Source: an uncultured Kiritimatiellota bacterium
GTDB taxonomy: Bacteria > Verrucomicrobiota > Kiritimatiellia > RFP12 > DVOR01
Assembly (NCBI GenBank): GCA_944389945.1
Contig: CALXOF010000007.1
Span: 1-64,000, forward strand
Direction: 5' to 3'
DNA: 64,000 nt
The notes under the pieces were generated by a model that did no database searches, was not told where the DNA came from, and was given only the letters and a program-made list of their open reading frames with translations. Below, piece by piece: positions 12,871 to 63,048 of this stretch; within the stretch, counting starts at the first letter, position 1, and every line of letters begins with the position of its first letter. The translations under genes were made by a program, and so were the position numbers.

Positions 12871-13001
12871 TCCCTATTCTGGCAGTCTTAGTGGAAGTTT
12901 GGAAGTTTAGAGGCTTGGAGGCTTGGTTTTCACAGCGGTCTCGTCCGTCGTGCGCTTGCCGCGCGTTCCGTTCTCTGTTCTCCGGGGCGGCGAAGCCGCC
13001 C

Positions 13002-15080
13002 TTAATGCACTGCCAGCAGGTCACGGTACTTCGGGAGCGGCCAGCGCGCGTCATCCACGCGCGTCTCCAGACCATCGACCACCGTGCGCAGGTCCGCCAT
13101 CGCGGATTGGATAGCCCGCGAGTCCGTCCCCGCAAGCGTGGTCTCCAGCGTGGCGCAACGCTCATGGAGCGCCTCCAGACCGGCCCCGAGCGCCTCAGCC
13201 GTCTCGCGCATGCACCGCGAACCCGCGGTCAGGCCCACGCGCTCCATCGTGCTCAGCGCCTGCGCCAGGCCCGCGACCTCATGCGCCACCACGGGCACAA
13301 TCATCCCGCGCGCGATTTCCAGCGCCACCTTGCCTTCCAGGCGCACCTTCCGCTCGAAGTCCGCCACAAAGACGTCATGCCGCGAGTGCATCTCCGTCGG
13401 CATCAACACGCCCTGCGACTCAAAGAGCGCCAAGTTCTGCTCCGCGATCTGCGGCTCCAGCGCCTCCGGCACCGTCCGCAGGTTCGGCAACCCGCGCCGC
13501 GCGGCCTCGCGCACCCACTCCTCGGAATAGCCGTCGCCGTTGAAGATCACCCGCTTGTGGTCCTTCAGAACCGCCCGCAGGACTTTCCCCAGCCCCTCAT
13601 GGAAACGCCGCTTCGGCACCTTCCCGATGGCCTCCGCCAACACCTCCATGCTCTCGGCCACGATGGTGTTCAGCACCATGCACACGCCCGAGCAGTTCTG
13701 GCTCGCGCCCGGCGCACGGAACTCAAACTTGTTCCCCGTGAAGGCGAAGGGCGACGTCCGGTTCCGGTCCGTCGCGTCCCGCGGCAAGGGCGGCAACGTG
13801 TCCACCCCGATGCGCAGCTTCCGCGCCTTCCCGTCACCCGCCGTCGAGACCGTCCCCTCCTCGATGCGCTGCAACACCTTCGCCAGGTCATCCCCCACGA
13901 AGATGGAGATGATCGCCGGCGGCGCCTCCAACGCGCCCAAACGGCTCTCGTTGCCGAGCGTCGCCGTTGTCGCCCGCAAGATGTCCGCATGCAGGTCGAT
14001 CGCCCGGATCACACTCGCCAGAACCGCCAAGAAGATGGCGTTCTCCTGCGGGTTTCCGCCCGGCTCCAACAGGTTCTTCCCATTGTAAGCCACCGACCAA
14101 TTGTTGTGCTTGCCCGAACCGTTCACCCCCGCGTACGGCTTCTCATGCAGCAGGCAGACGAACCCATGGCGCTCCGCCACATTCCGCAGCGTCTCCATGA
14201 TCAGCATGTTGTGGTCCACCGCCAGGTTCAGCTCCTCAAACATCGGCGCCATCTCAAACTGCGCCGGCGCCGTCTCATTGTGACGCGTCTTCGCCGGGAT
14301 GCCCAGCCGCCACAACTCCCGCTCCACGTCCTCCATGAAGGCCAGCACCCGCGGCTTGATTGACCCGAAATAATGGTCCTCCAACTGCTGCGTACGCGCC
14401 GGCGACGCCCCAAAGAGCGTCCTGCCGCACTGCACCAGATCCGGCCGCCGCAACCACAGCGCACGGTCCACCAGGAAATACTCCTGCTCCGCCCCCAGCG
14501 TCACCGTCACATGCCCATCCGGTTCCCCGAAGCACGCCATCAGCTTCCGCACCGCCCGGTCCAACGCCTGCATCGACCGCAACAGCGGCGTCTTCTTGTC
14601 CAGCACCTCACCCGTGTACGAACAAAAGACCGTCGGGATGCATAGCGTCGCCCCATTGCTATGACGCTTGATAAAAATCGGGCTCGTCACGTCCCACGCC
14701 GTGTAACCCCGCGCCTCAAAGGTCCGCCGCAGACCGCCCGAGGGGAAACTCGAAGCGTCCGGCTCACCCATGATCAGATTCTTGCCCGAGAAACGCGCCA
14801 GCGTCTCCGCCATTCCCGCCGGCTCAAAGAAAGCATCATGCTTCTCCGCCGTGCTCCCCGTCAACGGCTGGAACCAGTGCGTGAAATGCGTCGCCCCACG
14901 ATCCATGCCCCACTGCTTCAGCGCGTGCGCCACCTCATTCGCGATTGACGGGTCCAACGGCGTATGGTCGCGCATCGTATGCAGCAACGCCTCCGCCGTG
15001 TCCTTCGCCAAATATTCCCGCATCGCCCGCTCGTTGAACACATCCGAGCCATACGCGATATCCGTCCGCTCAATCGCCAT
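13002..15080 (-). CDS. glnN: glutamine synthetase type III
   Basis: 692 residues, the usual size of GSIII (about 700), much longer than GSI. It makes glutamine from glutamate, ammonia and ATP. Visible motifs: LGAEQEYFLVD (Glu metal ligands), RHNETAPAQFEMAP, NGSGKHNNWS (ammonia/glutamate loop), GNPQENAIFLAVL and RTSPFAFTGNKFEFRAPGAS with the catalytic Arg. The start at 15080 (MAIERTD) has GGAG six bases upstream; an ATG four codons earlier overlaps that site. An extended -10 promoter lies at 15122-15130. It stands alone, with repeat mosaics on both sides. Confidence 0.93.
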   Translation of the reverse strand: MAIERTDIAYGSDVFNERAMREYLAKDTAEALLHTMRDHTPLDPSIANEVAHALKQWGMDRGATHFTHWFQPLTGSTAEKHDAFFEPAGMAETLARFSGKNLIMGEPDASSFPSGGLRRTFEARGYTAWDVTSPIFIKRHSNGATLCIPTVFCSYTGEVLDKKTPLLRSMQALDRAVRKLMACFGEPDGHVTVTLGAEQEYFLVDRALWLRRPDLVQCGRTLFGASPARTQQLEDHYFGSIKPRVLAFMEDVERELWRLGIPAKTRHNETAPAQFEMAPMFEELNLAVDHNMLIMETLRNVAERHGFVCLLHEKPYAGVNGSGKHNNWSVAYNGKNLLEPGGNPQENAIFLAVLASVIRAIDLHADILRATTATLGNESRLGALEAPPAIISIFVGDDLAKVLQRIEEGTVSTAGDGKARKLRIGVDTLPPLPRDATDRNRTSPFAFTGNKFEFRAPGASQNCSGVCMVLNTIVAESMEVLAEAIGKVPKRRFHEGLGKVLRAVLKDHKRVIFNGDGYSEEWVREAARRGLPNLRTVPEALEPQIAEQNLALFESQGVLMPTEMHSRHDVFVADFERKVRLEGKVALEIARGMIVPVVAHEVAGLAQALSTMERVGLTAGSRCMRETAEALGAGLEALHERCATLETTLAGTDSRAIQSAMADLRTVVDGLETRVDDARWPLPKYRDLLAVH

Positions 15081-15121
15081 GTCACGCTCCATAAAGGTAG
15101 GTCATAGGTTGTTAAAAGCTT

Positions 15122-15130
15122 ATTATACCA
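15122..15130 (-). promoter_or_regulatory. extended -10 promoter TGGTATAAT of glnN
   Basis: Minus-strand TGTGGTATAAT, a perfect -10 with TG extension, 42 bp upstream of the glnN ATG. No clear -35. Confidence 0.65.
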
Positions 15131-15649
15131 CAAATCTCCCCCACCCCGCCCAAGGGGCGCGCTCGCGCGCCCCGGAGCGTGTAGCGGCGAAGCCGCAAAC
15201 CTTCCACGGCCACGGGAAAATAGACCCGCAAAGACGCAACTGTGGGCGCGAACCGCCTCGGGCTCCATCGAACGCTCTGCGGCTTCGCCGCTGACCGCGC
15301 CCGCCGCCTTCCGTTTCGCGCCTTATCGTTTTCCAAAGAACTAATCCGTCGCCCCGCAGGGGCGTTCCGTTCTCTGTTCTCCGTTCTCCGGGGCGCAGTA
15401 GCGCCCCTTCGGCCCAGACCCTTACGTTCCTTTGCATCTTCGTGGAAAACCACTCCGGTGCAATCACCTAAAACAAATCCTATATTCAGTTGTCAAAGAT
15501 CATCGGCGGTACGAATGCTTGGCACTCACACCACGCACCCTTGCCAAAGACCTGTCATTTGCCTTCCCTAAATCAATAACAATCCCCTTGTCCAACGCAA
15601 GATACACCATTCTCCAGACCTGTCATTTGGTCCCGGTGAACCACTAGGA

Positions 15650-15739
15650 ACGCAAGGGTTGGAGATTGGGTAAGAGGCGCAACACGCCGAACGGCGAAGT
15701 GCCTAGGCCCTTGCGTTCCCTCGTATCTTCGTGGAAAAC
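15650..15739 (+). repeat. module E copy 4
   Basis: Arms ACGCAAGGG (15650-15658) and CCCTTGCGT (15708-15716), inner GGCG-CAACA-CGCC, conserved CGAACGGCGAAGTGCC and the TTCGTGGAAAAC tail. It ends close to the 3' end of the restriction operon. Confidence 0.78.
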
Positions 15740-15757
15740 AGAGTAGCACCGCCGCCC

Positions 15758-18700
15758 TCAGTCTTGATTGACGCAGTCCTGCAGTTCCTCATAGTTGGCC
15801 ACTAGGTGATAACGCACAGAATCGTCCGGGGCCAAGGCTCGCACCCACGCTTCCGCGCACGTTTTGCGCAACTTCGCCTTATCAGGCAGTTCCCACCCAT
15901 CCGAAGAGCCCTTGGTCTCTGCGAGAATGCAAACGTGGCGCACGCTTCCCTTCTTGAAGGCCACCGCCCAGTCCGGATTGTAGGTTTCCCCATTCGGAAG
16001 TGGGATTGTATATTCCGACGGCAACTTAACAAAGGCCTCCACCTCCTCGGCGCCGTCCGTGTCCTTGGCGAACCGCTGCTCGACCTTCGAGTCGGAGTCC
16101 AGCCACGGGTAGAGGTGATGGCGCAGGCGCGCCTCCTCGTCGCAACGCTCCGAAGGCAGGGACGGCGCCTCCTCCATGAAGAAGTCGTCCCCATACCGCT
16201 CGTCCGTCGGATGATAGGCGATGGCCTCCAGCGCCTGCCGGAGCTTCTCGGTGTTGATGATGCGGGCGACCTCCGCGATGAAGACCTCCGGGTTCACCGC
16301 GTAGAGGGCACGCACCGCCGGCTCCAAGCGCCGCAGGATGGCCACGAGGGTGCGGCGCGTCAAGCCCGTCCGCTTCGGGTCGGCCAGCTCGCCCACCAGG
16401 TCATACGCCACCTTGCCGCCGCCGAGCGCGACGTCTTCCGAGCGCGACCGTTTCTCCCCGAAGGCCTCCCCACCCCGCACAGCCGTGGAGGTGAGGGCGT
16501 CCTTCTGGCTCACCCGCTCGATGACGACCTTGGGCTGAGGGACCTTGGGCCCTGTCTCCGTGCTGTTGAGCGCCGCGACGCAGGACTCGATGAGGCGCGG
16601 CGTGTCGATGCTGACCCTGCACACCGTCTTCTGCCGCAACTTCTGCCACAGCTCCTGGAACCCGGGCTTGCGCAGGTTCTCCTGGTTGACCTCCAGCCGC
16701 TTGCGGGCGCGGGCGTTCTCGACCTTGATCTCGCGCCCGGCGGCCAACGTGTCCAGGATGGCCAACACCGCCTCGCGCACATCCTCCAGCTCGCGTGGGA
16801 AGCCCTCCGCCAACGTCCCTGCCGCGCGGTCTTTGCGGAAGGCCTCGTTCAACGCCTCCTCGTTGTCTAGGTAGTCGTTGTTGAAGAGCCAGTTGTGGAC
16901 CTTCCTGGACTGCGTGCCGTCGATGGTCTGCGTAAGCCCGTTGGGCGTCTTCAGCGCGCGCCCCTTCAGGAAGTCCGGCTTGATGGCCCACGAGCGGCTC
17001 TTGATGGCCTCGGCGAACTCCTTCTGCAAAGCGGCGATGAAATCCTGGCAGGCATCCCGCGCCACCACGGTCAGGCGGTTGACGTCGTGCGTGTCGCCGG
17101 TCGCCCAGCGCGACCCGTCCTGCGTCACGCACAGGCGCAGGCCACGCCCCACTTTCTGCCGCAGTCGATCCCGGATTTTCTTTTCCTGCTCCGTCTCCGC
17201 CTTCGCAAGGGGTCGGAAGAAACAGATGACAAAGACGTTCGGGTTGTCCCACCCCTCTTGGAGCGCCGAGTGCGAGAAGATGAAGCGCACACGCGCACGG
17301 GCCGTGTCCTTCAGCGACAGCAGGCTCTCCTTGTCCCGCAGGATGAGGTCGTAGTCCTCCCCGCCGGACTTCTCGACCTCCCTCTCCGAGCGGTCGACGG
17401 CGCGTTTGCTCTTCTTGTCCTGGCTGAAGTAGCCTGCGTGCGTCTCCTCCGCCCGGATGCCGCGCAGGTAGGCCTTGTGCGCCGCCGGCCACGCCAGGTC
17501 TTGGAGGACGCGGTCCACCTCTTCCCGATAGACCCGCTCGAAAAGTTGCGCCAGCTGCCCTCGGTCGTCCGCCTGCCCATAGACGCGATAGTCCGCCACA
17601 TGCTCGATGAAGAAGAGCGAGAGCGTCTTGATGCCCTTGGCCAGGTTGGCGGCCTCCTTCAGCAGGTGCACCCTGACGGTCTCGCGCACCTGGATTTCCC
17701 GAAGCACGTCGGCCTCCACGGCGCCCACCGCCTCGCCGGCCCGGAACGTCAGGCCGTTGGCGAAACGCACCCATCCGCCCTCGTCGTCCTTGGCCACCTC
17801 TTGCACCACGTAACCCTGCGCGTATTCCGGCAACTTGCTTGAGAGATCGTGGAGGTTCTCTTCCCGCCCCACCAGCCGTGTCACGCGGCGGATGTCTCCG
17901 CCCGCCGTGCGCTGCTCGAACTCCAGCCGCGCCTTGGGCACGCCCGTCGCCTGCGGCTCCACCCCCGCCAGATAGAGATAGCCGGCCTGCCCCGAGAGGT
18001 TGCGCACGCGCAGCCCCGTCACCTCGATCTTCTTCACCAGCTTCCGGTTGTACGCGTCCAACGCGTCCAGCCGGTAGACCAGATCGTGCCGCGTCTTGTG
18101 CGTGGCCGAATAGCGCGACACGAAGAGCGGCTCAAACTCCTTCAGCGCCTCCGTCGTCGCCTTGCCCTCCATCTTCTGCGGCTCGTCGAGGATGAGGATG
18201 GGGTGGCACGCCGCGAGCAACTCCAGGGGCGAGTTGGATTCTGCCTCGTCCTGCCGCAGGCGGATGCGCCGGTTGGCCTCGCCCCGCGCGTTGAAGGCCT
18301 GGATGTTGATGACCAGGATGTTCAGCCCCGGCGAGTTCGCGAAGTCGGAGAGGCGCCCCGGCTGCTTGGAGTCGTAGACCGCCACCCGCGCCCGCACGCC
18401 GTACTTTCCGAAGAAGTGCCCCGCCGTCGCCTCGAGCGACGCCTTCACGCCCTCGCGGATGGCCACCGTCGGCACCACGACGACGAACTTCCCCCACCCA
18501 TACCGCTTGTGCAACTCAAAGGCCGTCTGCGTGTAGACATAGGTCTTCCCCGTCCCCGTCTCCATCTCCACGTCCAGGTTCACGGGCCACTTTTCCCCCG
18601 CGCCCCGCCACAGCTTCGCGGACTGCGGCAGCCCCAGCCGCGCCTGGCGCGCCCGCAGGTTCGCCCGCAGCGCCTCCTCGCCCAACGCCAACGGCGCGTT

Positions 18701-18838
18701 CGCGAAGACGGGCATCCCCCAATCGTCGCGCCGCACCGCCTCCTGCCGCGGCTGCCCCTCGAAGACGGCGCACACCGCCGTCGTCGCGTCCCACTGGTAG
18801 GGCAGACGGTCGAACTTCAGTTCCAGTCGGTTGGCCAT
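15758..18838 (-). CDS. res: type III restriction endonuclease Res subunit
   Basis: 1026-residue helicase-nuclease. It translocates or cleaves when two unmodified sites are met, in complex with Mod. Walker A METGTGKTYVYT (about 92-103), a DEAD-like box II written ILILDEPQK (about 211), a C-terminal helicase half with SHSALQEGWDNPNVF and QKVGRGLRL (about 565), and a C-terminal PD-(D/E)xK nuclease (PDWAVAF...ILAETKGS, about 955-975) are all intact. The start at 18838 has GAGGAGG; the mod stop is 11 nt upstream. It is the last gene of a five-gene minus-strand defence operon. Confidence 0.93.
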   Translation of the reverse strand: MANRLELKFDRLPYQWDATTAVCAVFEGQPRQEAVRRDDWGMPVFANAPLALGEEALRANLRARQARLGLPQSAKLWRGAGEKWPVNLDVEMETGTGKTYVYTQTAFELHKRYGWGKFVVVVPTVAIREGVKASLEATAGHFFGKYGVRARVAVYDSKQPGRLSDFANSPGLNILVINIQAFNARGEANRRIRLRQDEAESNSPLELLAACHPILILDEPQKMEGKATTEALKEFEPLFVSRYSATHKTRHDLVYRLDALDAYNRKLVKKIEVTGLRVRNLSGQAGYLYLAGVEPQATGVPKARLEFEQRTAGGDIRRVTRLVGREENLHDLSSKLPEYAQGYVVQEVAKDDEGGWVRFANGLTFRAGEAVGAVEADVLREIQVRETVRVHLLKEAANLAKGIKTLSLFFIEHVADYRVYGQADDRGQLAQLFERVYREEVDRVLQDLAWPAAHKAYLRGIRAEETHAGYFSQDKKSKRAVDRSEREVEKSGGEDYDLILRDKESLLSLKDTARARVRFIFSHSALQEGWDNPNVFVICFFRPLAKAETEQEKKIRDRLRQKVGRGLRLCVTQDGSRWATGDTHDVNRLTVVARDACQDFIAALQKEFAEAIKSRSWAIKPDFLKGRALKTPNGLTQTIDGTQSRKVHNWLFNNDYLDNEEALNEAFRKDRAAGTLAEGFPRELEDVREAVLAILDTLAAGREIKVENARARKRLEVNQENLRKPGFQELWQKLRQKTVCRVSIDTPRLIESCVAALNSTETGPKVPQPKVVIERVSQKDALTSTAVRGGEAFGEKRSRSEDVALGGGKVAYDLVGELADPKRTGLTRRTLVAILRRLEPAVRALYAVNPEVFIAEVARIINTEKLRQALEAIAYHPTDERYGDDFFMEEAPSLPSERCDEEARLRHHLYPWLDSDSKVEQRFAKDTDGAEEVEAFVKLPSEYTIPLPNGETYNPDWAVAFKKGSVRHVCILAETKGSSDGWELPDKAKLRKTCAEAWVRALAPDDSVRYHLVANYEELQDCVNQD

Positions 18839-18849
18839 CGCGTTCCTCC

Positions 18850-20844
18850 TCACAGCACCCAGAGCGTCGCCTTGCACCCGGCCTGGCGGAGCCCCGCCTC
18901 CACGTTCAGCTTCACGCTGTCGTCCGCGAACCCGGCCTCACGGAAGGCCACGTAGCTCGGCGAGACGGCCTGCCCCACGATCCACCGCGTCACGGCCTCG
19001 GCCTTCGCCGCCGTCAGCTGCCCCTCCCCGGCCAGGCACGCCACCACGAAGCCGTCGGCCACCGACCACACGGTCAGCCCGGCCATCACCTCCCGCTCGA
19101 TCCGCTCGACCAAGAGCGGCTCCGTCACCCGCAAAAGCGCCTGAAAGAGAAGATCCTCCTCCGTCCGCCCTTCCTTGATGGTCTCTTCCTGCAGGGCGGC
19201 CTCCCAATTCGTGAGTGCGTCATCGGGCGTCTGCGCGACCTCTGCCTCGTTCTTCTCGTCCACCCGCAACACGCGGAAACCCACATCCAACTTCCCGCGC
19301 AGTTCCGGGTACTCCTCAAGAATCTTCTCCCCGGCCCGTCGGATACGTTCCTCACCGATGTCACAGATGTTCTGGAACCCAGCATCCATCGCCGCGCTCC
19401 CTAGTTCCGCCGCCTCTGGTAACTGTACCATAATGAACTTCCGCGTTCCGCCATCCTCCGCATTCAATGCCATCACCACGTGCGCCGTCGTCGCACTACC
19501 AGAGAAGAAGTCCAGAACCAGGTCACTTTCTTGTTTCTCGCCTGTACTTTCTCTTGGCAACAAATTCCCCATCGCCATCAAACGTTTGATAAGCGATGTT
19601 GATTTAGGAAACGAAAAGGGAGAACGACCAAAAAGTTTCTTCAACTCCTCGGTTCCATTCCCGATATCATCAATCCACGTTGTATATTTTTGCGTTTTTT
19701 GTTCCCCCTCCAAAGGTTCGAAAATCTTTTCGTACGGGATCCATTCTCCAAGTTCATTCTTCGTGAATTCAACACGGCCATCCTCGATGGCCGCGAAAAG
19801 GTTGCTGGCGCTCCAGCGCCAGCAACCTTCGGTCTTACGAACGAAGGTTGCTGGTTGTATACCGCCTTTGCCGACACGCTCGTAAATCATTGGATAAACA
19901 TCCGTTCCATCTGGTGCTTTAATAGGATAGAAGAGATTAGGGCGATCTGTTCTAAGACTATTAGACCCCCACTTCCGTAATAGTTGCGTCTTATAGCGAC
20001 GCTTCTTTACCTCATCATATTTCGGGTAAACATCTCCTTCGCGTATCCGTTCACCTGCTTGAAACTCATATGACCTCGAATAACATAGAATGTATTCATG
20101 AAGAGCAGCAAAATGCGTACTATCCTCGCGCCCACTTCGAGCTTTCCAGTTGATTTGAGCGACAAAGTTTCCTGCGCCGAAGACTTCGTCGCAAAGGCGC
20201 TTGAGGTTGGCCTGCTCGTTGTCGTCGATGGAGATGAAGATGACGCCGTCGTCGGTGAGGAGGTCGCGGGCGAGGAGGAGGCGGGGGTACATCATGGTGA
20301 GCCAATCGGAGTGGTAACGGCCATTGGTCTCATCATTCTTTTGGAAGGGGTCCTTGTCCTCGGTCTGGCGGCCCTCGTCGTCGATCAGGCCGGCCTTGGC
20401 CATCTCCTCGCGGACGGAGCGGACGTACTTGTCGTGGTAGATGAAGTCGTGGCCGGTGTTGTAGGGCGGGTCGATGTAGATGAGCTTGACCTTGCCGGAA
20501 TAGGCGGTGCGCAAGAGCTTGAGGGCTTCGAGGTTGTCGCCCTCAATGTAAAGATTCTGCGTCGTGTCGAAGTCCTTGGAGCGTTCGCGGACGGGGCGGA
20601 GGGTGGAGGCCGTGGATGCGTTGGCGGCATAGCGCGCGGCGCGCTTGCCGGGCCACTCCAGACGGTAGCGCTCGTTGGGGCCCTCGACGACCTTCTCGGG
20701 GGAGAGGGCGCGGCGGAGCAGGTCGAAGTCCACGGTCAGGCCGTCCTGCCCCTCGGTCACGCACTCGGGGAAGAGGGCGCGCAGTTTCGCCATCTGCTCC
20801 TGCGCCAAATCAGCCGTCGTCTCGGGAAGGTTCTCAAAGCCCAT
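18850..20844 (-). CDS. mod: type III R-M adenine-specific methyltransferase Mod
   Basis: About 664 residues. It methylates adenine in the recognition site and gives Res its specificity. Motif order is that of the beta class: catalytic DPPYNTG (about 124-130) first, SAM-binding DFFSGSATTA (about 443-452) later, with the target-recognition region between (about 230-400). The start is ATG 20844 or 20853; AAAGG spacing favours 20844. Base composition in the target-recognition part (19550-20120) is clearly more AT-rich than the surroundings, consistent with exchange of specificity. A perfect 15-bp inverted repeat lies inside the gene (19798-19829). Confidence 0.93.
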   Translation of the reverse strand: MGFENLPETTADLAQEQMAKLRALFPECVTEGQDGLTVDFDLLRRALSPEKVVEGPNERYRLEWPGKRAARYAANASTASTLRPVRERSKDFDTTQNLYIEGDNLEALKLLRTAYSGKVKLIYIDPPYNTGHDFIYHDKYVRSVREEMAKAGLIDDEGRQTEDKDPFQKNDETNGRYHSDWLTMMYPRLLLARDLLTDDGVIFISIDDNEQANLKRLCDEVFGAGNFVAQINWKARSGREDSTHFAALHEYILCYSRSYEFQAGERIREGDVYPKYDEVKKRRYKTQLLRKWGSNSLRTDRPNLFYPIKAPDGTDVYPMIYERVGKGGIQPATFVRKTEGCWRWSASNLFAAIEDGRVEFTKNELGEWIPYEKIFEPLEGEQKTQKYTTWIDDIGNGTEELKKLFGRSPFSFPKSTSLIKRLMAMGNLLPRESTGEKQESDLVLDFFSGSATTAHVVMALNAEDGGTRKFIMVQLPEAAELGSAAMDAGFQNICDIGEERIRRAGEKILEEYPELRGKLDVGFRVLRVDEKNEAEVAQTPDDALTNWEAALQEETIKEGRTEEDLLFQALLRVTEPLLVERIEREVMAGLTVWSVADGFVVACLAGEGQLTAAKAEAVTRWIVGQAVSPSYVAFREAGFADDSVKLNVEAGLRQAGCKATLWVL
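19798..19829. repeat. perfect 15-bp inverted repeat inside mod
   Basis: AAGGTTGCTGGCGCT (19798-19812), a 2-nt gap, then its exact complement (19815-19829). A third partial copy, GAAGGTTGCTGG, follows at 19843. It lies in the specificity region and encodes the EGCWRWSAS segment. Confidence 0.85.
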
Positions 20845-20857
20845 GGTATCCATCCTT

Positions 20858-21541
20858 TCACGCTTCCAACTTGCTCTTCAGGGTCTGCCTCTCGTCCGCC
20901 AGTTCCTTCAGCCGCCGGTAGATTTCCATCCGCTCGGCGTCCGTCCGTGCCCGGTCGCGCTGTTTGTTCAGGTTGGCGATCTCTTGGTCGATCTCCTCGA
21001 TCCGTTCCTCGATTTTGAGGTAATCGAAGGCCGCGTTGGCCCAGGCCGACGCCGTCGTGGCCTCCTGCGCCGCGTTCGACCAAAAGGCCGGGAGGGAAGA
21101 GATGATGCCGTAGTGCGAGGTGATGGCGCCAACGGCCACATCGCCCCCCGGCACAATCATCGCCGGGCGGATGTCGATGCAGTAGTCCATCAGGTGCACG
21201 AAGGCGACCGCCACGGGGTTCAACGTCAAGGCCTTGCCCAGCCACTCCGCCACGCGCCGGATCTGCGCCGTGTCCTTCAGCGAGTCCGCCCACGCCACCT
21301 CCACCACGTCCACCCCGCGCACCTTCCCCTCGGGGGCGAAGTGTTCGTCCACCGTCGCATCCAATCGCGTCAGACAGGTCACGCCCTTGATGGCAAACCA
21401 ATCTTTCTCGGGGAGCGCCGCCCCACCCCGCCGTTCCACCGCCTCGGCCAACGCCTTCTTCGTCAGCCGCACCTCCGCCGACTGAGGATCCACAATCCCC
21501 AGCCACGCGATCAATCCCGTCAGGTTCTCATCCTCGTCCAT
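20858..21541 (-). CDS. DUF4391-like protein of the R-M operon
   Basis: 227 residues. The pattern (N-terminal LIAWLGI, then KKALAEAV, a central beta-rich region and a C-terminal helical coiled coil EERIEEIDQEIANLNKQRDRARTDAERMEIYRRLKEL) resembles DUF4391 proteins. From general knowledge these are often encoded beside type III-like Mod and SNF2 helicases; the assignment is by eye. No nuclease or nucleotide motif is visible. GGAG lies 8 nt before the ATG. Gaps to its neighbours are 3 and about 13 nt, so it is within the operon. Probably an accessory or assembly factor of the system. Confidence 0.6.
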   Translation of the reverse strand: MDEDENLTGLIAWLGIVDPQSAEVRLTKKALAEAVERRGGAALPEKDWFAIKGVTCLTRLDATVDEHFAPEGKVRGVDVVEVAWADSLKDTAQIRRVAEWLGKALTLNPVAVAFVHLMDYCIDIRPAMIVPGGDVAVGAITSHYGIISSLPAFWSNAAQEATTASAWANAAFDYLKIEERIEEIDQEIANLNKQRDRARTDAERMEIYRRLKELADERQTLKSKLEA

Positions 21542-21544
21542 ATC

Positions 21545-22273
21545 TTACGCTCCAAACAAGGCACCCCAAATCCTACGAAACAGCCCTTTTCGAGTAGGAG
21601 GGAACAATTTCTCATAATGGACCTCTTCCCTATGACCCATGCGCACTCCAACAGAAAGTGCAGTATTCCCATACGACTTCTCTTCGGGAGTTGACCTCCT
21701 GTAAAGCGTCGTTGAGGCTGTAGCCATATGGTACTTCACTTCAACTCCCCCCGTCCCCCACAATGGACGCCCACCTCGTGACGCCCAACGAAGCAAATCG
21801 ATTGTGTCAGCACTCACCTCCTTACGGTTCTGAACGACAAACGCTTCAACTGTCTTATAATTCGCCGACGTTCTGAGCTCCCCCTGAATCCTATCAATGA
21901 CCTGCTGGAGGTTCCGCCTACGTCGATTGATGGCAAACGTATCACGCCTACATGCCTTGCAGGCTCGTACAAAATCTGCTTTATTCGCCCAAGACTCCTC
22001 TAATTCCCAAGAGCGGGCCTCTTTCAATAATTCACCTTGCAGCGTGACGGGGCCACTTTGCGGCAACGCCTCATACTCCTGCCTGAACTTGCTCTCCCAC
22101 GGCAAAACATTCTCATAAGGCAGATAGTCAACGCCCTCAATCTCGATGGGACGCCACCGCCCACTTTGCTGACATTTACGGATAAGGTCCATATACGACA
22201 CAGGATCCCATACGGACAACCCACGTGAGTTGTCTAATGAGTCGTACAAATCTCCGAACCAAGATGAGGTCAT
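21545..22273 (-). CDS. unknown protein of the R-M operon
   Basis: 242 residues, no family recognised. No signal peptide, membrane segment or catalytic motif is evident. A basic helical middle (CKACRRDTFAINRRRRNLQ, about 107-125) contains a Cys pair, and the C-terminus is short and basic (TRKGLFRRIWGALF). Base composition is more AT-rich than the flanking genes, suggesting recent acquisition. It lies 2 nt after the helicase gene and 3 nt before the DUF4391-like gene, so it is very likely co-expressed with the defence operon. A novel accessory subunit is the most economical guess. Confidence 0.6.
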   Translation of the reverse strand: MTSSWFGDLYDSLDNSRGLSVWDPVSYMDLIRKCQQSGRWRPIEIEGVDYLPYENVLPWESKFRQEYEALPQSGPVTLQGELLKEARSWELEESWANKADFVRACKACRRDTFAINRRRRNLQQVIDRIQGELRTSANYKTVEAFVVQNRKEVSADTIDLLRWASRGGRPLWGTGGVEVKYHMATASTTLYRRSTPEEKSYGNTALSVGVRMGHREEVHYEKLFPPTRKGLFRRIWGALFGA

Positions 22274-22275
22274 GT

Positions 22276-25200
22276 CTATTCTCCCACTTCAGTGATTGTT
22301 TCCTCCGGGAGGATGAGGGCGAAGGTGAGAAGGGTGAGGGCGGCGCGGTCGTCAGTGAGGCCGGTGTGGAAGTCAAAGGGTTCGTCGCCGAGGAGGAGTT
22401 TGGCACGGTTGGTCTCGCGAGTGACGCCAAGCTGGCGGAGGGCTCCTTCAAGGGCGGGGGTGAAGGCCTTGGGGTCGAGGTCTCCAAGACGGGTGGCGAG
22501 GACGGTGTCGGCCTTGGCCCGGTCGCGGCAGAGGGCGCGGAAGAGGGCGAGGGTCTCTTCGGGGGAGAGTGGTTGCAACGCGCCGAGAGGCTTACCATCC
22601 TTGTCCGCCGCAAGTAAGAAGCAGTCACGGAAAGGATTGACCTTGATTTCTTCCTCAGAGAGGCCGGCGCGACGCAACAGGAAGAGGACGCCGCCGCGCG
22701 TGGGCACGGGAAGCCCGCTCTTGGCGAAGGTCTCGGTGAGGGCGGCGGGGGTGACGGCGCAAAGGCCGAGGGGCGCCTCGGCGCACCGCTTTTCCCGAGC
22801 CTTGTCGGCCCGAAGCCACGCATCGAGTTCGGCAAGGTAATCGTCGAATTCGCCTTGGTTGCCGGTGAAGAAGGCATCCATGTCGAAATGACTGTGCTGA
22901 ATGGCTTGGAGTTGGCGCTCGCGGTAATCCAAATCTTGTTTGACCTCGTTGCCGAGGGCGGCGCCGTCAGGCGCGACAATGGCACCAAAGGCGATTTTGG
23001 TGCGCACCATGCGCTCCAGACCAATATATTGGTTGAGGTCCTTGCACGGCCAAAAGAGGACATTACGAATAAACTTATTGCGAGAGCCGATACGGTCGAT
23101 ACGACCGATGCGCTGCGCGAGCCTCAAGGGATTCCAATGGATATCGTAGTGGACGACCAAATCGCAGTCTTGGAGGTTCTGCCCCTCGGAGAGGCAATCG
23201 GTGGCAACGACCCAGTCGATCTCGGGCTCCTTTTCGCGGCGCGGTTCACCGGTCTCCGGATCTTTGGGGCACTGGGCATAAGGGGCGAAACGGCGGAGGA
23301 TTCTGCCCATCTCTTCCGCCTTGGCTCGCCCGCCATGCCAGACGATGCCCTTGGAGCCGGAGACGCAGGCAATGTGCCGTTCGGGATGGCGTTCTGCGAG
23401 GGCTTTGGCAACGTATTCAACGGTATCGGCGAAGGCGGAGAAGATAAGCGTTTTCTCGTTGCCGGGATTGAGCGGATGATCCACCTTTTCCTGCAACACG
23501 TGCTCCAGTTCCGCCAACTTGGCGTCACGTGCGGGCCCAACAGACTCGACATCATCCAGAATGCCTTTAAGGACACCTAGGTCTTGCTTCAGGTAACGTT
23601 TGAGGGCGGCGACATCGAAGTATTGCTTGGCTGGAAGGACAACCTCTCGCGACAATCCCTCGGCCAGAGCCTCATCATCCTCATCAAGGGTATCCGGATC
23701 AATGCCGAGCGCGGCGGCCTTGGCCTGGCGTTTGGCCTCGACCTCGCCGAGCAAGGCCTTGGCGGTGACCCATGGCAGGCGAACCGTTCCCTTGGCAAGC
23801 GCCTCAATCTGGGCCTGCGTGCGGGCCAGAACGGCGTCACGGACCGTCCGGCGGAAGGAGTCTACGGAGCTCTCCAGACGCTTGAGCGCGTTGATACGCA
23901 TCAAGGCGGTGAGAGACTTCTGGCGGTTCTTGTCGAGGAGTTGCTTACCCTCCTCCTCCTCGTGCCACCGGATGCCGGCGCGCAGGCAGTGGGTCGGGTT
24001 GTAGGCCACCAAGGTGAGGTCGTTGAGACGGTCGCTAAGGGTGGTGACGTCGACCCGCGCGGATTGGGTGTCGATTTCAGGATAACAGGAGAGGGACTTA
24101 CACTTCGGGAAGACGCCGATTTCGGTCTCCGCGTCATCGTAGAACTTCGAAATACCGCTCCGACTGCGGGCAATGGTGTAACGCTCAAGCAGACGGAAGT
24201 AAGTCGACGGCAGGACATTGGCCAACGTGGCGGCAGAAAGCGCCTCGGGGTCATCCGCATGTTCCCTGCTCCATCGCGTGGCGATATGTTGGGCGGCTTG
24301 GACAACGGCGACGACCTCGCGCAGGAAGGGGCCGCTCGGCGGTTCATCCCCGCGATAGACCAGCCCCAACTGGTGGGTAAGGTCGGCCAAGCGGTTGCTG
24401 ACGGGCGTGGCCGAAAGCATGAGGAGCTTGGTCTTCGGATGTGCCTTCAGATAATCGAGAAGAAACTGATAGCGCTTGCCGCCGCGGTTGCGGAAGTTGT
24501 GGCTCTCGTCGATGACGATGAGACCGAAGTCTTTCCTAAAGAACTCCTCGCGCGGCACCCGCATCCCGCGGCCGGGGTCGACCTGGTCAAGCGAGAGGTC
24601 AGTGTGATTGAGCAAGGCGTAGAAGAAGTCTGAACGCCCATTCAGCGTTGGAAGTGGGTTATAGTCGTCATCCTGCAAAAAGCGTGCCCAATTCGTACGG
24701 AGCTTCTTGGGGCAGAACACCAAAACGCGTTGGCTCATGCGCTCATAGGCCTTGATGACGGCAAGCGCGGTATAGGTCTTGCCAAGGCCAACGCTGTCGG
24801 CGAGGATACAACCACCATCTTTTTTGAGCTTGCGAAGGGCTGCGATGGCACCATGGCGCTGGAAGGCATAGAGAGCCTTCCAGATAGGGGTCTCTTCAAG
24901 ACTCCGGTCATTGTCGATAGCTCCGCGCCATTCATCGAGACGGTCGTGAAAGAGGTGCCAGAGGGAAAGGAAGTAAATGAAGCGCGGGGCGTTGGGCGCA
25001 TAGAGCGTAGCCAAAGTTTTGCGTAGCTCGCCCTTGACATCCTGGCCTTGCTCCCAAAGACGCTCGTAGACTGCGGCAAGAGCGGCGCCGGAAGACGCAT
25101 CGGGCGCGAAAAGTCCGGCCTGGGGCATCGCGTACGCGGGAGCGAGACACTCGCGCGTGAGCTCGGCATTGCCCACCAAGAGCACGCCATCGACGGCGGC

Positions 25201-25419
25201 CATCCATGGCAGTGCAGTGTCACACGCAACGGTACGGACCTCAATGGCGTCAGAAGCCAGCCAACGATGCAAGCGCCGAGCGTCCACACCCTGCGTCAGC
25301 TGATTGTCGAGGATAAGTTCGGCGGGGGTGGTGGCAAGCAGTCGGTAGCGCGGGGCCTCAGCGGCGTCGCGCAACACCGGCCCCACCGGCAAAAGAATAC
25401 GCAAACGGGCGGGACGCAT
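22276..25419 (-). CDS. SNF2-like helicase, first gene of the R-M operon; 5' end out of frame
   Basis: Readable frame of 1047 residues from an internal ATG at 25419. Helicase motifs are complete: Walker A ADSVGLGKTYTAL (about 206), box II VIDESHNFR (about 303), LMLSATPVSN, and the C-terminal TDCLSEGQNL and QRIGRIDRIG (about 770). A SNF2/DEAD-family translocase on DNA is expected. Coding sequence in the same frame continues upstream of 25419 for 48 codons (APPRTFAAWLTSA...LVPRLTLGGLAIL) back to a run of ten G. The true start is probably ATG 25606, which is out of frame with ten G and in frame with nine. No ribosome-binding site precedes 25419, so the gene is probably OFF in this sequence. See the repeat at 25565. 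Confidence 0.85.
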   Translation of the reverse strand: MRPARLRILLPVGPVLRDAAEAPRYRLLATTPAELILDNQLTQGVDARRLHRWLASDAIEVRTVACDTALPWMAAVDGVLLVGNAELTRECLAPAYAMPQAGLFAPDASSGAALAAVYERLWEQGQDVKGELRKTLATLYAPNAPRFIYFLSLWHLFHDRLDEWRGAIDNDRSLEETPIWKALYAFQRHGAIAALRKLKKDGGCILADSVGLGKTYTALAVIKAYERMSQRVLVFCPKKLRTNWARFLQDDDYNPLPTLNGRSDFFYALLNHTDLSLDQVDPGRGMRVPREEFFRKDFGLIVIDESHNFRNRGGKRYQFLLDYLKAHPKTKLLMLSATPVSNRLADLTHQLGLVYRGDEPPSGPFLREVVAVVQAAQHIATRWSREHADDPEALSAATLANVLPSTYFRLLERYTIARSRSGISKFYDDAETEIGVFPKCKSLSCYPEIDTQSARVDVTTLSDRLNDLTLVAYNPTHCLRAGIRWHEEEEGKQLLDKNRQKSLTALMRINALKRLESSVDSFRRTVRDAVLARTQAQIEALAKGTVRLPWVTAKALLGEVEAKRQAKAAALGIDPDTLDEDDEALAEGLSREVVLPAKQYFDVAALKRYLKQDLGVLKGILDDVESVGPARDAKLAELEHVLQEKVDHPLNPGNEKTLIFSAFADTVEYVAKALAERHPERHIACVSGSKGIVWHGGRAKAEEMGRILRRFAPYAQCPKDPETGEPRREKEPEIDWVVATDCLSEGQNLQDCDLVVHYDIHWNPLRLAQRIGRIDRIGSRNKFIRNVLFWPCKDLNQYIGLERMVRTKIAFGAIVAPDGAALGNEVKQDLDYRERQLQAIQHSHFDMDAFFTGNQGEFDDYLAELDAWLRADKAREKRCAEAPLGLCAVTPAALTETFAKSGLPVPTRGGVLFLLRRAGLSEEEIKVNPFRDCFLLAADKDGKPLGALQPLSPEETLALFRALCRDRAKADTVLATRLGDLDPKAFTPALEGALRQLGVTRETNRAKLLLGDEPFDFHTGLTDDRAALTLLTFALILPEETITEVGE

Positions 25420-25561
25420 GAACCGATCGCGCAGAATCGCCAGGCCGCCGAGGGTGAGGCGGGGGACAAGAAAAGAGGCGTCTGGAAGGAGATTCTCGGC
25501 TGTGGCGGAGGTCAGCCAAGCGGCGAAGGTGCGCGGGGGTGCGCCATCAATCCAAGGATGT

Positions 25562-25606
25562 TTACCCCCCCCCCGTAATCAGATTCTGCAAATGACCATC
25601 ACTCAT
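25562..25606 (-). other. true 5' end of the helicase gene, currently a 14-codon dead-end frame
   Basis: ATG at 25606 reads MSDGHLQNLITGGG and then stops at TAA 25562-25564, directly after the G run. Deleting one G gives ...ITGGGKHPWIDGAPP and joins the helicase frame, a protein of 1109 residues. An AAAGGA-like site lies further upstream than is usual. Confidence 0.7.
25565..25574 (-). repeat. poly-G tract (G10), candidate phase-variation switch
   Basis: Ten consecutive G on the minus strand, 11 codons into the helicase gene. Slippage by one base toggles the frame. It lies inside translated sequence, the usual location of type III R-M phase-variable tracts in mod genes of pathogens, but here it is in the helicase. 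Confidence 0.8.
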
Positions 25607-25690
25607 GGAACGTCGCTGCTTCCTTTGTGTGCACCTGTGCCGACCATCGGGGCGGCGTATCTCACCCGCGCCCAGACTCACAATACTATT

Positions 25691-25720
25691 AGTATACCCT
25701 TTCCAAGGCCCTTCCGTCAA
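25691..25720 (-). promoter_or_regulatory. sigma-70-type promoter of the R-M operon
   Basis: Minus-strand TTGACG (25715-25720), 18-bp spacer, TATACT (25691-25696). Predicted transcription start is near 25684, giving an untranslated leader of about 78 nt before ATG 25606. This placement supports 25606 as the real start of the helicase gene. Confidence 0.75.
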
Positions 25721-25819
25721 ATTTTCTGAAAATCACGGCAACGAAAGAATGCCCCGGCGGGAGAGTTTTCGGAGGGGATTGAGGGGGCTTTTGGGAGGGG
25801 GCGTAAAGGGGCTTTTTGA

Positions 25820-25903
25820 GACCCTATAGTGGTCCGAGGTCAACCACTATAGGGGTCGGGGGCGAGACCCTATAGTGGTCCGACCTGAGACCCTATAGTG
25901 GTC
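25820..25903. repeat. CTATAG repeat cluster 1 (four units)
   Basis: Units of about 15 bp, GACCCTATAGTGGTC or its complement, at 25820-25834, 25843-25857 (inverted), 25866-25880 and 25889-25903. The flanking GGGCTTTTTGAGACC also matches the flank of cluster 2 in inverted orientation. Sister clusters: 41791-41874, 50896-50979. Confidence 0.85.
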
Positions 25904-25951
25904 CGCGAAGGGCCCTTAAGGTGGGTGTTGAGGAGAGGGGGTGAGGGCAAC

Positions 25952-25986
25952 AAAAAAAGGCGCCGCCTGGGGAGAGGCGGCGCCTT
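25952..25986 (-). terminator. rho-independent terminator of the beta-galactosidase gene
   Basis: Minus-strand stem AAGGCGCCGCCT/AGGCGGCGCCTT (12 bp, 6-nt loop) followed by a run of T (forward A run 25952-25958). It lies 40 bp after the lacZ stop. Confidence 0.9.
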
Positions 25987-26026
25987 GCGTTTGAGTGGGG
26001 CGCGTTGGGGACGCGCGGGGGAAGAC

Positions 26027-29000
26027 TCAGCGAATCTTGAGGGTGAGTTCGCTGAGGGTGGCCCAGATGTGGCCCTTGATGGCGGGGGCCTTGGCGGTGA
26101 GGCGGAGGTAACGGGCCTCGGTGGGGGCGAAGTCGATGTCGCGCCACTTGCGGTTGTTAGCCTTCCAGCCGGTGTCGCCGTCGAAGACGGTCGTCCAGGT
26201 CTTGCCATCCTTGCTGAGCTCGATGGAGCACTTGCCGATGAGGCCGTTGAGCTCGTCGGTGCGCGGCAGGAGGCGGACGCCGGCAACGGTCTGGACTTCG
26301 CCGAAGTCAAGCTCGAAGCTGTGCGGGTAATCGGGGTGGACGTTGCGCCAGTCGGTGTGCCAGTAGGTCTTGGGGTTGCCGTCGAAGATGTTGGCGACGT
26401 TGCCCTCGCCGGGCTCTTCGGAGGAGACGTTCACGACTTTCCAGGCGGTGCGGACGGCCTCCTTGTCGAAGGTCCGGAAAAGGGGCGGGGTGGGAATCTG
26501 GCCGTCGTCCGGGATGACGGTGACGGCGACGGTGCCGCTCTCCAGCGCGAAGGGCTTGTCGTAGACGAAGGGCGCCTGGCCATTCACGGAGACCTGCACC
26601 TTGGCGTCGGGGCGGTCGGGGGTGACGGTGACCTGGTTCTTGCCGTCACGCGTCACGAGGGCAAGGCCTGCGGTGGGACGGAAGGGCTGGGGCTTGAAGG
26701 GCTTGGAGCCGAAGCGCAGGGCGAAGCCGAAGGAGAAGGGCTTGTTGTAGACCAGGTGTTCGGCCCAGGGGCGGGGACCGCAGGAGCCGTTGCCGAGACC
26801 GGTCTGGGCGTAGTCCAGGTGGAGCCAGGTCTTGTCCGGGGTGGGCAGGAGGGAGGGCAGCGTAGCGTCGAAGAGCGTCACGGCGTCCCACTGGTTCACG
26901 GAGAAGGCGAAGGGACGGTTCCACACGGGCGAGAAGAAGCAGAGGGAGTCCTCGCCGTCTTCCAGGAAGATCCAATGGGCGTCCTCGCGGTTGCCGTATT
27001 CCTGGGTCTCGGGATAGGGCATGAAGAAGTCCTTGACGGAGCAGGTGAAGTGGTCACGCCAGGTGTGGAACTTGCGGTCGACGTAGTTCTCGAAGGGCCC
27101 GAGGGCGTCGTAGTGGACGGTGTCGAGGTCCTTATTGACGGCGAGCTCAAAGCCCAGACGCGGGATGATTTCCTCAGGAGACTGCGGATAGAAGATGCCT
27201 TCGCAGGTGACGGTGTTCATGAGGACCGTCCAGACGAGGGTGTACTTGTAGGGGACGTTGCCGCCGTCGGTCTCCATCTCGGCGATGATCTGAACGGCCT
27301 CTTGGTCGCCCTCGAGCTTACGCCACTTCATGGAGAGGCAACGGTTGCCCTGCTCCTTGAGGGAGCGCCAGGTGGCGGAGTCCTTGATGTAGCGGTCGTT
27401 GTTGATACGGGCGCGGTACATCGTGAAGCGGGGCGGGGCGGCGAGGAGGTCGCGGCCGTTGTAGTGAACCTGGGCGAGGACGCCGTCGCGGAAGAGGAGG
27501 TAGGTGCCCTCGACGCCAACGCCGGAGACGCGCAGGGCGCCATCCTCGGTCTGCGTGACGGCGGCCGCGACCTTGGGCAGGGTCTTGGGGTTCTTGAACT
27601 TGAGAGGCTCGCGGGTGCCGCCGGGGATGGCGAACCAAGCGACGCAGTCGGTCACGATGGCCTTGGGGTCGACGCCCTTGTCGCCGATGAAGACGGGGTA
27701 GTCGAGGTCGCCGTCACGCACGGACTTGACGGCCAAGGTGGTGGTTTCGCCGGGCTTGAGGGCGGGGAGGTCGGCCAGGCGCGTGCCGTTCTTGTCGTAG
27801 AGCGCGTAGCCCTCGGCGGTCTTGTGGAAGAACTTGCTGCGGACGGAGAGGGACTGCTTGGACTCATCCCAGGTGAATCCGAAGGGCTGCTGGGCGCGCT
27901 TGACGGCCCAGAACTGGCCTTTGGGCTTGTGCTCGGCGGTGATGACGCCGTTGTCGCAGAAGTCGCCGAAGTTGGGACGGTCGCCGAAGAGGCCGCCGAA
28001 GGCGAGAGACTTGCCGGTGAAGGGCTCGAGCTTGAAGAGGCCGGTCTTGGGGTCCTTGGTGGCGCGGAGGCCCTGGTCGATGTAGTCCCAGACGAAGCCG
28101 CCGATCATGCGGGGATATTCCTCGTAGATCTTGATGTACTCATCGAACATGCCGCAGGCGTTGCCCATGGAGTGAGCGTATTCCACGTGGACGTAAGGGC
28201 GGTGGGTGTGGCGCTTAGCGATGTTGCGGAGCTGGTCGTGCGGACGGTACATGGAGGAATCCATGTCGTTGTGCGGGGAGTTCTCGGGGAAGTCGCAGTA
28301 GTGCACGAGGCGGGAGGGGTCGTTCTGCTTGAGCCAGTCGCCCTGGTCCTCGAGATTCTTGCCGCCGCCGGTCTCATTGCCGAGGGACCACATGATGATA
28401 GAGGCGTGGTTCTTGTCGCGCTGGAACATGTTATGCACGCGGAAGGCGTAGGCGGCGTGCCAGTTCGGCTTGTTGTTCAAGCACTGCGGATGGCCGCGGA
28501 GCTGATGGGCCTCGATGTTGGCCTCGTCCATCACGTAGAGGCCAATCTCGTCGCAAATCTCGTACCAACGCGGGTCGTTGGGATAGTGGGCGGTGCGCAC
28601 GGCGTTGAAGTTGCCCTTCTTCATCCAGAGGGCATCCTTTTGCATCTTCTCCTCGGTCATGTAACGGCCGCGGTCGGGGTCCATCTCGTGACGGTTGACG
28701 CCCCAAAGCTTGGTGCTGACGCCATTGACGAGGAGCTCGCCCTGCTTGCCCACCTCGATGCGGCGGAAGCCAAGCTTGAGGGCGCGTGCGTCACCATTGG
28801 GGAGGGAGAGGGTGGTGGCGTAAAGGTTCGGGGTCTCGGCAGTCCAGCGGGCCACGTCCTTGACGGTACCGGCGGGCAAGGCCAGCTTAACCTCCTCGCC
28901 GGCCTTGAGGGCGGGGACGGGGAGCTTGGCGGAATAGATGTCGCCGATGGTCACGGAGACCTCGGTGGGAACGGAGGGGGTGTCACCCGCGTTGCGCACC

Positions 29001-57797: not shown

Positions 57798-58811
57798 ATG
57801 CAAACACCTACCCCCCCCCATGTTGAAGACTTACACCTGGTCTACGCGACGGATAAGGGTTATCTCTTTATCTCCGCCGTCTCAGCGGTTAGCGCGGCCC
57901 GCTTAGCCAGCACTCCCGAGCGCCTCGTCATCCACCTGCTCGATTGCGGCCTAGACGATGCCGACTGGGAACGCTTCTGCACCCTCGTGCGCAAAGGCGA
58001 CTCCCGCGTCACCCTCCGGCGTCACGTGATTGACATGGCCCGCTTCGCGGGATTCAAATCATGGCATGGGAGTCTCGGCACCTACGCGCGCCTCTTCTTG
58101 CCGGAACTCCTTCCAGAGGCTCCGTGGTGTCTTTATGTAGATGGAGACACGCTTTTTACGGAGGATCCTTTTAAGGCATTGACCTTTTGCGCGGATAATC
58201 TCGCCATCGTGGGACCAGAAGACAGATGTTCTCCCCAGAGCCGTGCCTGGTTCACCGAGAAAGGATTCCAGAAGGATCTCACCCATTACTTCTGTGCCGG
58301 CTTCATTCTAATCAACCTCGACTGGTTCCGAGCACATGATGGTATCCACTGGTGTATGGACTTCCTGACAGCACACCCTGACACGCCTTTCCCCGATCAA
58401 GACGCGCTCAACCTCTTCTGCGAGGGGCACATTGGCCTTTTCTCCAAACCCTGGGGCGTGCTCAGCGAACGTCTCAACGAGGCCGATTTCCCCGCACTGA
58501 TTCATTATGTCGTAGATCTGCCCACGCGGATGCGTTTTCGTACACGCGATGGCTTCCGTGACGTAACGGCGGTGTGGGTGAAGTTTGTTCAAGTTGCGCT
58601 TGGGATGAACGTGACGGAATCCTGCCATATCCCGCGCTGGCAATGGCTCTTTGGACGCGCCTACAACCATCTCCTGCGCCTCATCATCGCCGTACTCGCG
58701 CACACGCCCTTCGGCAAACGCTGGCCCCGCATGGCTGAGTTTCAGGGGCTTTTCATACCTGGCACAGTCCGGCGCAGGCTTCTGTCGAAGAAGTTTTGGA
58801 AGAGGAGCTGA
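57798..58811 (+). CDS. family 8 glycosyltransferase
   Basis: 337 residues. GT8 retaining transferase of the LPS galactosyl/glucosyl type: LHLVYATDKGYLFISAVSAVSA N-terminus, the metal-binding DxD in CLYVDGDTLF, FCAGFILINLDWFR, DQDALNLFCEG and IHYV. The basic, helical C-terminus may bind membrane. Probable role: adding a hexose to LPS core or another surface glycan. No ribosome-binding site is visible and the promoter ends 6 bp before the ATG, so a leaderless mRNA is likely. A terminator follows. Confidence 0.88.
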   Translation: MQTPTPPHVEDLHLVYATDKGYLFISAVSAVSAARLASTPERLVIHLLDCGLDDADWERFCTLVRKGDSRVTLRRHVIDMARFAGFKSWHGSLGTYARLFLPELLPEAPWCLYVDGDTLFTEDPFKALTFCADNLAIVGPEDRCSPQSRAWFTEKGFQKDLTHYFCAGFILINLDWFRAHDGIHWCMDFLTAHPDTPFPDQDALNLFCEGHIGLFSKPWGVLSERLNEADFPALIHYVVDLPTRMRFRTRDGFRDVTAVWVKFVQVALGMNVTESCHIPRWQWLFGRAYNHLLRLIIAVLAHTPFGKRWPRMAEFQGLFIPGTVRRRLLSKKFWKRS

Positions 58812-62739: not shown

Positions 62740-63048
62740 TTCTTTCTCCCTTGCTCAGGCGCCCCTCGCGGGGCGCAACCATTTACCACTTACCATTTAC
62801 CACTTGCCATCACGCCTCCTCGGTCTTCGGCTCGCAGTAGAAGCGCTCGGTCTGCGTCACGCGCAGGCCGCAGGCGGCCAGCGCCTCGGCGTCGAGCGCC
62901 TGGGCGGCGGAGAGGCCTTCGGCTCGCGCCGCGGACGACCGTGCGAAAGCCCCGGCGAAAAACTTCTTGACCAGATGGGGGGGGTGGTATTCTATGCGTA
63001 GTCGTGGGGCATGTCGCCCCACCCTCACACGAAAAAGGAGTGTTACCG
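62740..63048. other. intergenic: hairpin, 14-bp tandem repeat, gene fragment, promoter of PEP-CTERM gene
   Basis: Hairpin GCGCCCC-TCGC-GGGGCGC (62759-62776) is followed by two exact copies of ACCATTTACCACTT (62778-62805). On the minus strand 62810-62980 reads as about 55 codons (VKKFFAGAFARSSAARAEG...FYCEPKTEEA) with no usable start; it may be a gene fragment. The promoter of the next gene is at 62967-62993. Confidence 0.5.
62967..62993 (+). promoter_or_regulatory. promoter with poly-G spacer upstream of the PEP-CTERM gene
   Basis: TTGACC (62967-62972) and TATTCT (62988-62993, with TGG extension) are separated by only 15 bp, and eight of these are a G run (62977-62984). Two more G would give the optimal 17-bp spacing. 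Confidence 0.6.

Follow-up and report, generated by a model that had tools for sequence, protein, structure and literature searches.

Restriction systems that are switched by repeats are known mainly from pathogens, and mainly through mod genes. In phase-variable type III mod genes, as described in three reports, a simple repeat shifts the reading frame on and off (PMC2667262, PMC8125046, PMC3498834). Phage resistance by the Pgl system of Streptomyces coelicolor switches at about 10^-2 to 10^-4, and the number of G in a tract of pglX is held responsible (PMC4365076). A promoter G tract of the PorA type alters expression in Neisseria meningitidis (PMC3639595). For Akkermansia muciniphila, a gut commensal, one report gives homopolymers over 8 bp in 17 genes, with phase variation proposed, long G runs in two capsule genes, and 21 PEP-CTERM proteins (PMC3048395). 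Multi-locus phase-variable genomes are apparently restricted to pathogens according to a review, which may be a database bias (PMC11868660), and a survey regards phase variation as possible in non-pathogens too (PMC3711429).

The locus described here lies in the window, i.e. the whole analysed stretch of 64,000 nucleotides from an uncultured Kiritimatiellota bacterium. It resembles the phasevarions in having a simple repeat in a type III restriction-modification locus that would shift the reading frame. The phasevarions have theirs in mod, whereas the repeat of the window is in a helicase gene preceding Mod; a sister system has it in mod. The proposed switch is of a known kind, in an unusual gene and an unexpected lineage.

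The operon and its G tract

The operon consists of five genes, the helicase gene being the first, and includes type III Mod and Res. By the family matches of these two it is a type III restriction-modification operon, with predicted activity. The features of the locus are:

25691..25720, minus strand: sigma-70-like promoter of the operon, TTGACG-18-TATACT, 10 of 12 consensus matches
25562..25606, minus strand: frame of 14 codons, ATG to TAA, of the G10 (OFF) allele, from sequence reading
25565..25574, minus strand: G10 tract, the proposed switch, from sequence and comparison with relatives
25420..25564, minus strand: coding extension in the helicase frame, from the tract to ATG 25419, with low dN/dS, from alignment and dN/dS
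22276..25419, minus strand: SNF2-type helicase (SNF2-rel_dom, Helicase_C), ORF from ATG 25419, frame open from 25578
21545..22273, minus strand: 242-aa protein, no family found, beginning 2 bases past the helicase stop
20858..21541, minus strand: 227-aa protein with a weak DUF4391 match (25.1 bits, cut-off 29.9)
18850..20853, minus strand: type III Mod (DNA methyltransferase), whole frame
15758..18877, minus strand: type III Res (restriction subunit), whole frame

Direct reading of the minus strand gave ten G at 25574-25565. Translation from the ATG at 25606-25604 yields M S D G H L Q N L I T G G G and ends at the TAA at 25564-25562, with the G run beginning eleven codons in. For the helicase, an open frame of 1,100 codons extends from 25578 to 22279, and the frame of ATG 25606 is one base off. 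By arithmetic, a tract length divisible by three extends the frame of ATG 25606 to 1,109 residues. The first-pass annotation had given this length for nine G, 14 codons with a stop directly after the ten G, and a good promoter upstream of the ATG; sequence and arithmetic agree with the first two statements, and the promoter-like site TTGACG-18-TATACT lies upstream of the ATG.

In the region 15600-26000, seven promoter-like sites were found on both strands, compared with a mean of 1.9 in shuffled sequences. Three of these are on the minus strand, and the best one, 25720-25691, precedes the helicase; one plus-strand site also scores 10. A weaker minus-strand site is located just within the helicase gene (25337-25310) and another inside res. 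The hexamers TTGACG and TATACT or TATGCT were found again by eye in five of six related leaders and are absent from that of genome G006. A terminator-like site at 25986-25957 separates the operon from the upstream gene.

The helicase exceeded the Pfam gathering scores for the SNF2-related domain (49.3 bits, cut-off 24.9) and for Helicase_C (53 bits, cut-off 23.5). With PADLOC, adjacent genes matched MTase_III (1e-191) and REase_III (2.5e-238), which identifies a type III Mod/Res pair; against the NCBIfam model for type III endonucleases, Res scored 313 bits, under the cut-off of 564. Among the best 25 of 44 families, HKD+Snf2 was the PADLOC model nearest to the helicase, and the score was far under the cut-off for a phospholipase-D-like anti-phage protein. 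A PLD-like domain had been suspected at the helicase N-terminus; no library match covers that part. The structure predictions were of low confidence, with a mean pLDDT of 45.0 for the whole helicase and 46.4 for its first 230 residues. DISARM was considered and rejected. Its DrmD resembles the present case in that a SNF2-like helicase shares an operon with a methyltransferase, and the DrmD models match the window helicase, but their scores of 126.6 bits (cut-off 610) and 92.3 bits (cut-off 950) are too low, and DrmA, DrmB and DrmC found no match among the other four genes of the operon. Cross-matches to the DrmA and BrxH models came from the helicase itself, again among the best 25 of 44 families. 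BREX and Pgl were likewise dismissed, as the four other operon genes gave no match to PglX or PglZ. The likeness to Pgl lies in G-tract switching, there of phage resistance; the gene differs from pglX, which encodes a methyltransferase, and operon and host are unrelated. The helicase presumably has a role in defence.

The tract in related loci

A protein search in 59 genomes (the own genome, 16 of the genus and 42 of the order) retrieved six close helicase loci besides the window with an identity of 58-93%, two in G005 and one each in G001, G004, G008 and G006; the other matches were distant. The seven close loci thus represent six genomes of the genus. In all seven the homologous place is occupied by a G tract, with lengths of 11 in both G005 copies, 8 in G001, 9 in G004, and 10 in G008, G006 and the window. 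The leader before the tract differs among the loci, most in G006, and the tract is kept. By composition such a run is not rare, with six G8 words observed in the window versus 10.15 expected; the significance of the tract therefore comes from its presence in the relatives, composition alone being uninformative. A chance run was ruled out by the conservation in 7/7 close loci. In 97,225 bases, comprising window positions 13000-26100 and the stretches of the six relatives, eight G/C runs of at least 8 were present, of which seven are the tract, one per locus. About 9.6 such runs per 100 kb are expected from neighbour frequencies, and they are otherwise rare around the close loci. The number of independent lineages is smaller than seven, because the window and both G005 copies have a near-identical leader: window positions 25575-25715 are 95-96% identical to the leaders of L051 and L052 before the two G005 helicases. 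These helicases are only 59% identical to each other, so that near-identical leaders before dissimilar genes point to a leader exchange between the copies.

Tract comparison in relatives, proposed by the first-pass annotation together with the caveat of a homopolymer error in assembly, bears directly on such an error. The relatives are metagenome assemblies, with four of six records marked MAG, and the G10 length may be off by one. An artefact would, however, need a wrong length in most of the seven loci, and 8-11 G stand at the same place in at least three record series (CALX, DVOR, CASE), which makes the tract itself very unlikely to be artificial. We therefore give an assembly or sequencing error as the explanation an extremely low probability. 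Of the caveat, the doubt about the existence of the tract is largely removed by the relatives, and the uncertainty of the exact length in each record persists.

The offset between the ATG frame and the helicase frame is 1 in the window, G008, G001 and G006, 2 in both G005 copies and 0 in G004, hence the classes 0, 1 and 2 occur in one, four and two alleles. The OFF readings from the ATG end after 14, 14, 14, 19, 19 and 28 codons. One of the seven alleles is in frame from the ATG, that of G004 (L054, G004:C1), and it is interrupted by a TAG once 648 codons have been read; none of the seven was found to give a complete product from an ATG. In G006 a GTG before the tract is in the helicase frame with no stop between, giving an open frame of 1,115 codons, and this allele, OFF if counted from the ATG, may be ON from the GTG. 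Five relatives have a full-length gene, and in four of these the helicase frame is unbroken over 1,093-1,106 codons; the gene of G008 is truncated at the contig end.

A repeat that sets the frame of a conserved gene and is kept in position while varying in length shows two properties of simple-repeat phase-variable genes. The G tract is very probably a slipped-strand phase-variation switch of the helicase, which is OFF in the window assembly; the position-conserved, length-variable tract of the relatives supports the first-pass proposal of a phase-variable poly-G switch in the first operon gene. Slipped-strand mispairing in replication would add or drop a G, and switching would presumably be reversible. 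Where the tract length corresponds to whole codons, ribosomes starting at ATG 25606 would continue into the helicase and yield the 1,109-residue product (ON), and at other lengths they would halt after 14-28 codons (OFF). The population would then be a mixture of cells with and without helicase, a form of bet-hedging, either against phage or against the costs that the system brings. It is plausible that the OFF state also lowers the expression of the downstream genes by polarity; neighbouring genes are 2, 3 and 4 bases apart, and Res overlaps Mod by 28 bases. Judged by MutS, missing mismatch repair was rejected as a cause: the own genome has MutS, and 14 of the 17 genomes of the genus do.

The conserved position in 7/7 loci would also be expected of a programmed recoding site, at which RNA polymerase or the ribosome slips on the G run and makes a fixed share of full-length product whatever the DNA length. 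The tract lengths of 8-11 span all three frame classes, and the promoter-spacer G tracts of the same genus, described below, do not fit such a site. In one survey, moreover, A or T runs are named as characteristic motifs of RNA polymerase slippage (PMC3711429). We consider recoding very improbable.

The codons behind the tract look constrained as protein. For the 45 codons following it, a short stretch, dN/dS was 0.12-0.48 in all but one of 21 pairs, the exception being window and G005:C49 with 0; for codons 52-600 it was 0.06-0.45, the extension being higher in some pairs and lower in others. This is in line with the first-pass view that 48 codons behind the tract read as normal protein. The low dN/dS of both gene and extension also speaks against a decaying pseudogene, i.e. 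a helicase on its way to loss with the frameshift as a first lesion. The lack of a whole product from an ATG in the seven alleles and the internal TAG of G004 would suit such a decay, but the helicase frame of about 1,100 codons is open in the window and four relatives, and the frame problem occurs at the same homopolymer across divergent lineages. Decay is thus very improbable.

A start behind the tract, at ATG 25419 or elsewhere, would turn the tract into a leader element without effect. The longest window ORF by the usual starts does begin at ATG 25419, and GTG or TTG codons are present in frame behind the tract in every one of the seven alleles. Against this, only the window and one G005 copy, two of the seven alleles, have the methionine of ATG 25419, and before residue 96 no start codon is common to all seven at one position. 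In a profile comparison with six distant helicases the alignment begins at residue 77 versus residue 80-81, i.e. 80 residues precede the aligned block in the distant helicases compared with 76 after the tract in the window helicase. From this offset the distant helicases have an N-terminus of similar length, the N-terminal part itself being too divergent to align. ATG 25419 was ruled out as the start by its allele distribution and the dN/dS of the extension, and we see next to no chance that any start behind the tract is the true one. The first-pass annotation had asked whether homologues begin at the position of 25419; they do not.

A possible helicase module and a sister system

Genome G006 lacks Mod and Res at this locus: the helicase, the tract and the two genes behind the helicase are there, and next to them come a tRNA synthetase and a Ham1-type gene. 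In this genome, which is 94% complete, no relative of Mod was found at E values up to 1e-40. Because G006 has the helicase and two genes without Mod and Res, the switched unit may be the helicase module and not the restriction enzyme. In L052 (G005:C49) the identity to the window is 93% for the helicase, 39% for the 242-aa gene, 87% for the DUF4391-like gene, 98% for Mod and 80% for Res, a mosaic that suggests an exchange of the 242-aa gene. The second G005 copy has Mod and Res proteins with 41% and 30% identity to those of the window. A scan of viral contigs gave no relative, and DUF4391 together with a helicase and a methyltransferase was not found in the open-licence papers searched.

The window mod contains no G/C run of at least 8, hence the repeat inside mod that characterizes a phasevarion is absent from the window operon. 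It is present in a sister family of the same genus (L057 from G015, L065 from G004), in which the helicase has no run of at least 8, and mod carries G10 (L057) or G8 (L065) at one shared place where the frame breaks. A further run of 10 (L057) or 7 (L065) G is situated in the gap from the stop of mod to the start of res, and could alter ribosome-binding spacing. The runs are:

L057, 7310-7319: G run in mod
L057, 6787-6796: G run between mod and res
L065, 13086-13093: G run in mod
L065, 13607-13613: G run between mod and res

Judged from these sequences, the proposed switch is tied neither to one gene nor to restriction. It would act on the operon-leading helicase, kept across divergent members of the genus, and on mod in the sister system. 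With slightly more doubt than belief, we propose a three-gene defence module of helicase, 242-aa protein and DUF4391-like protein that has a phase-variable helicase and works with or without a type III enzyme, as one of many G-tract contingency loci, of both frame and promoter-spacer type, in a probably gut-commensal uncultured lineage.

Among the distant helicases, six of 47 loci, several of them overlapping, have a G/C run of at least 8, two of these being L057 and L065. In L103 the run lies upstream, with stops in all frames ahead of the helicase, and in L108 and L111 it lies behind the helicase by the match coordinates. In L104 (G162) the run, G9 at 1185-1193, is within the open helicase frame but ahead of the first ATG, a possible case outside the genus.

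G tracts elsewhere in the genome and genus

The own genome contains 33 distinct G/C runs of at least 9. Promoter-like hexamers flank nine of these on both sides; of 3,000 anchors placed at random in the same loci, 81 are so flanked. The promoter-spacer pattern TTGAC-N0-8-G8-N1-9-TATNNT was searched in the 59 genomes and matched 66 times in the 17 genus genomes (13 positive) and, among the 42 order genomes outside the genus, 17 times (12 positive), with three places listed twice. The reversed pattern, an imperfect control of like make-up, had no match in all 59 genomes. A spacer of 15-17 was present in 33 of 43 measured matches from seven genus genomes. These promoter tracts, not the helicase tract, have the same design as the PorA promoter tract. 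A genus-wide set of phase-variable promoters is possible, with G tracts thinner across the order; the per-genome G10 counts of the genus and the other order genomes overlap without separation.

Ten proteins near tracts of the own genome comprised seven with a PEP-CTERM end, one glycosyltransferase and two without a family. Another ten included two GT8, one GT11, one polysaccharide pyruvyl transferase and one acyltransferase, the remainder being two zinc-ribbon proteins and phage capsid, LysM and EPSP-synthase proteins. With zinc-ribbon, capsid, LysM and EPSP-synthase genes among them, not all tracts of the genome are of the contingency type. By a crude rule, 30 promoter-tract loci were sorted into two with no gene, ten with a gene cut by the locus end and 18 others, four of which had a negative coding score. 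PEP-CTERM-like proteins were encoded by five of the 18 whole genes behind promoter tracts, a smaller share than the 7/10 in the own-genome set.

The lineage presumably lives in the gut, as record names such as faecavium indicate, and it is not known to be pathogenic. A genus in which promoters of surface proteins, genes for sugar transferases and defence genes all have G tracts would bear on the question of phase variation in non-pathogens. Phase variation together with the name Kiritimatiell was not found in the open-licence papers searched, and the accessible text on A. muciniphila mentions neither a restriction helicase nor promoter-spacer tracts (PMC3048395).

Two further tracts were noticed in the window. 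At 62967-62993 (plus strand) a promoter-like site TTGAC-G8-TATTCT stands directly before the gene 63004-63684 (plus strand), the product of which has a signal-like start and a PEP-CTERM-like end; this site is likely a second G-tract switch in the window. At 57811-57819 a C9 run, read on the coding strand, begins at the fifth codon after an in-frame ATG of a GT8 glycosyltransferase gene, which is in frame.
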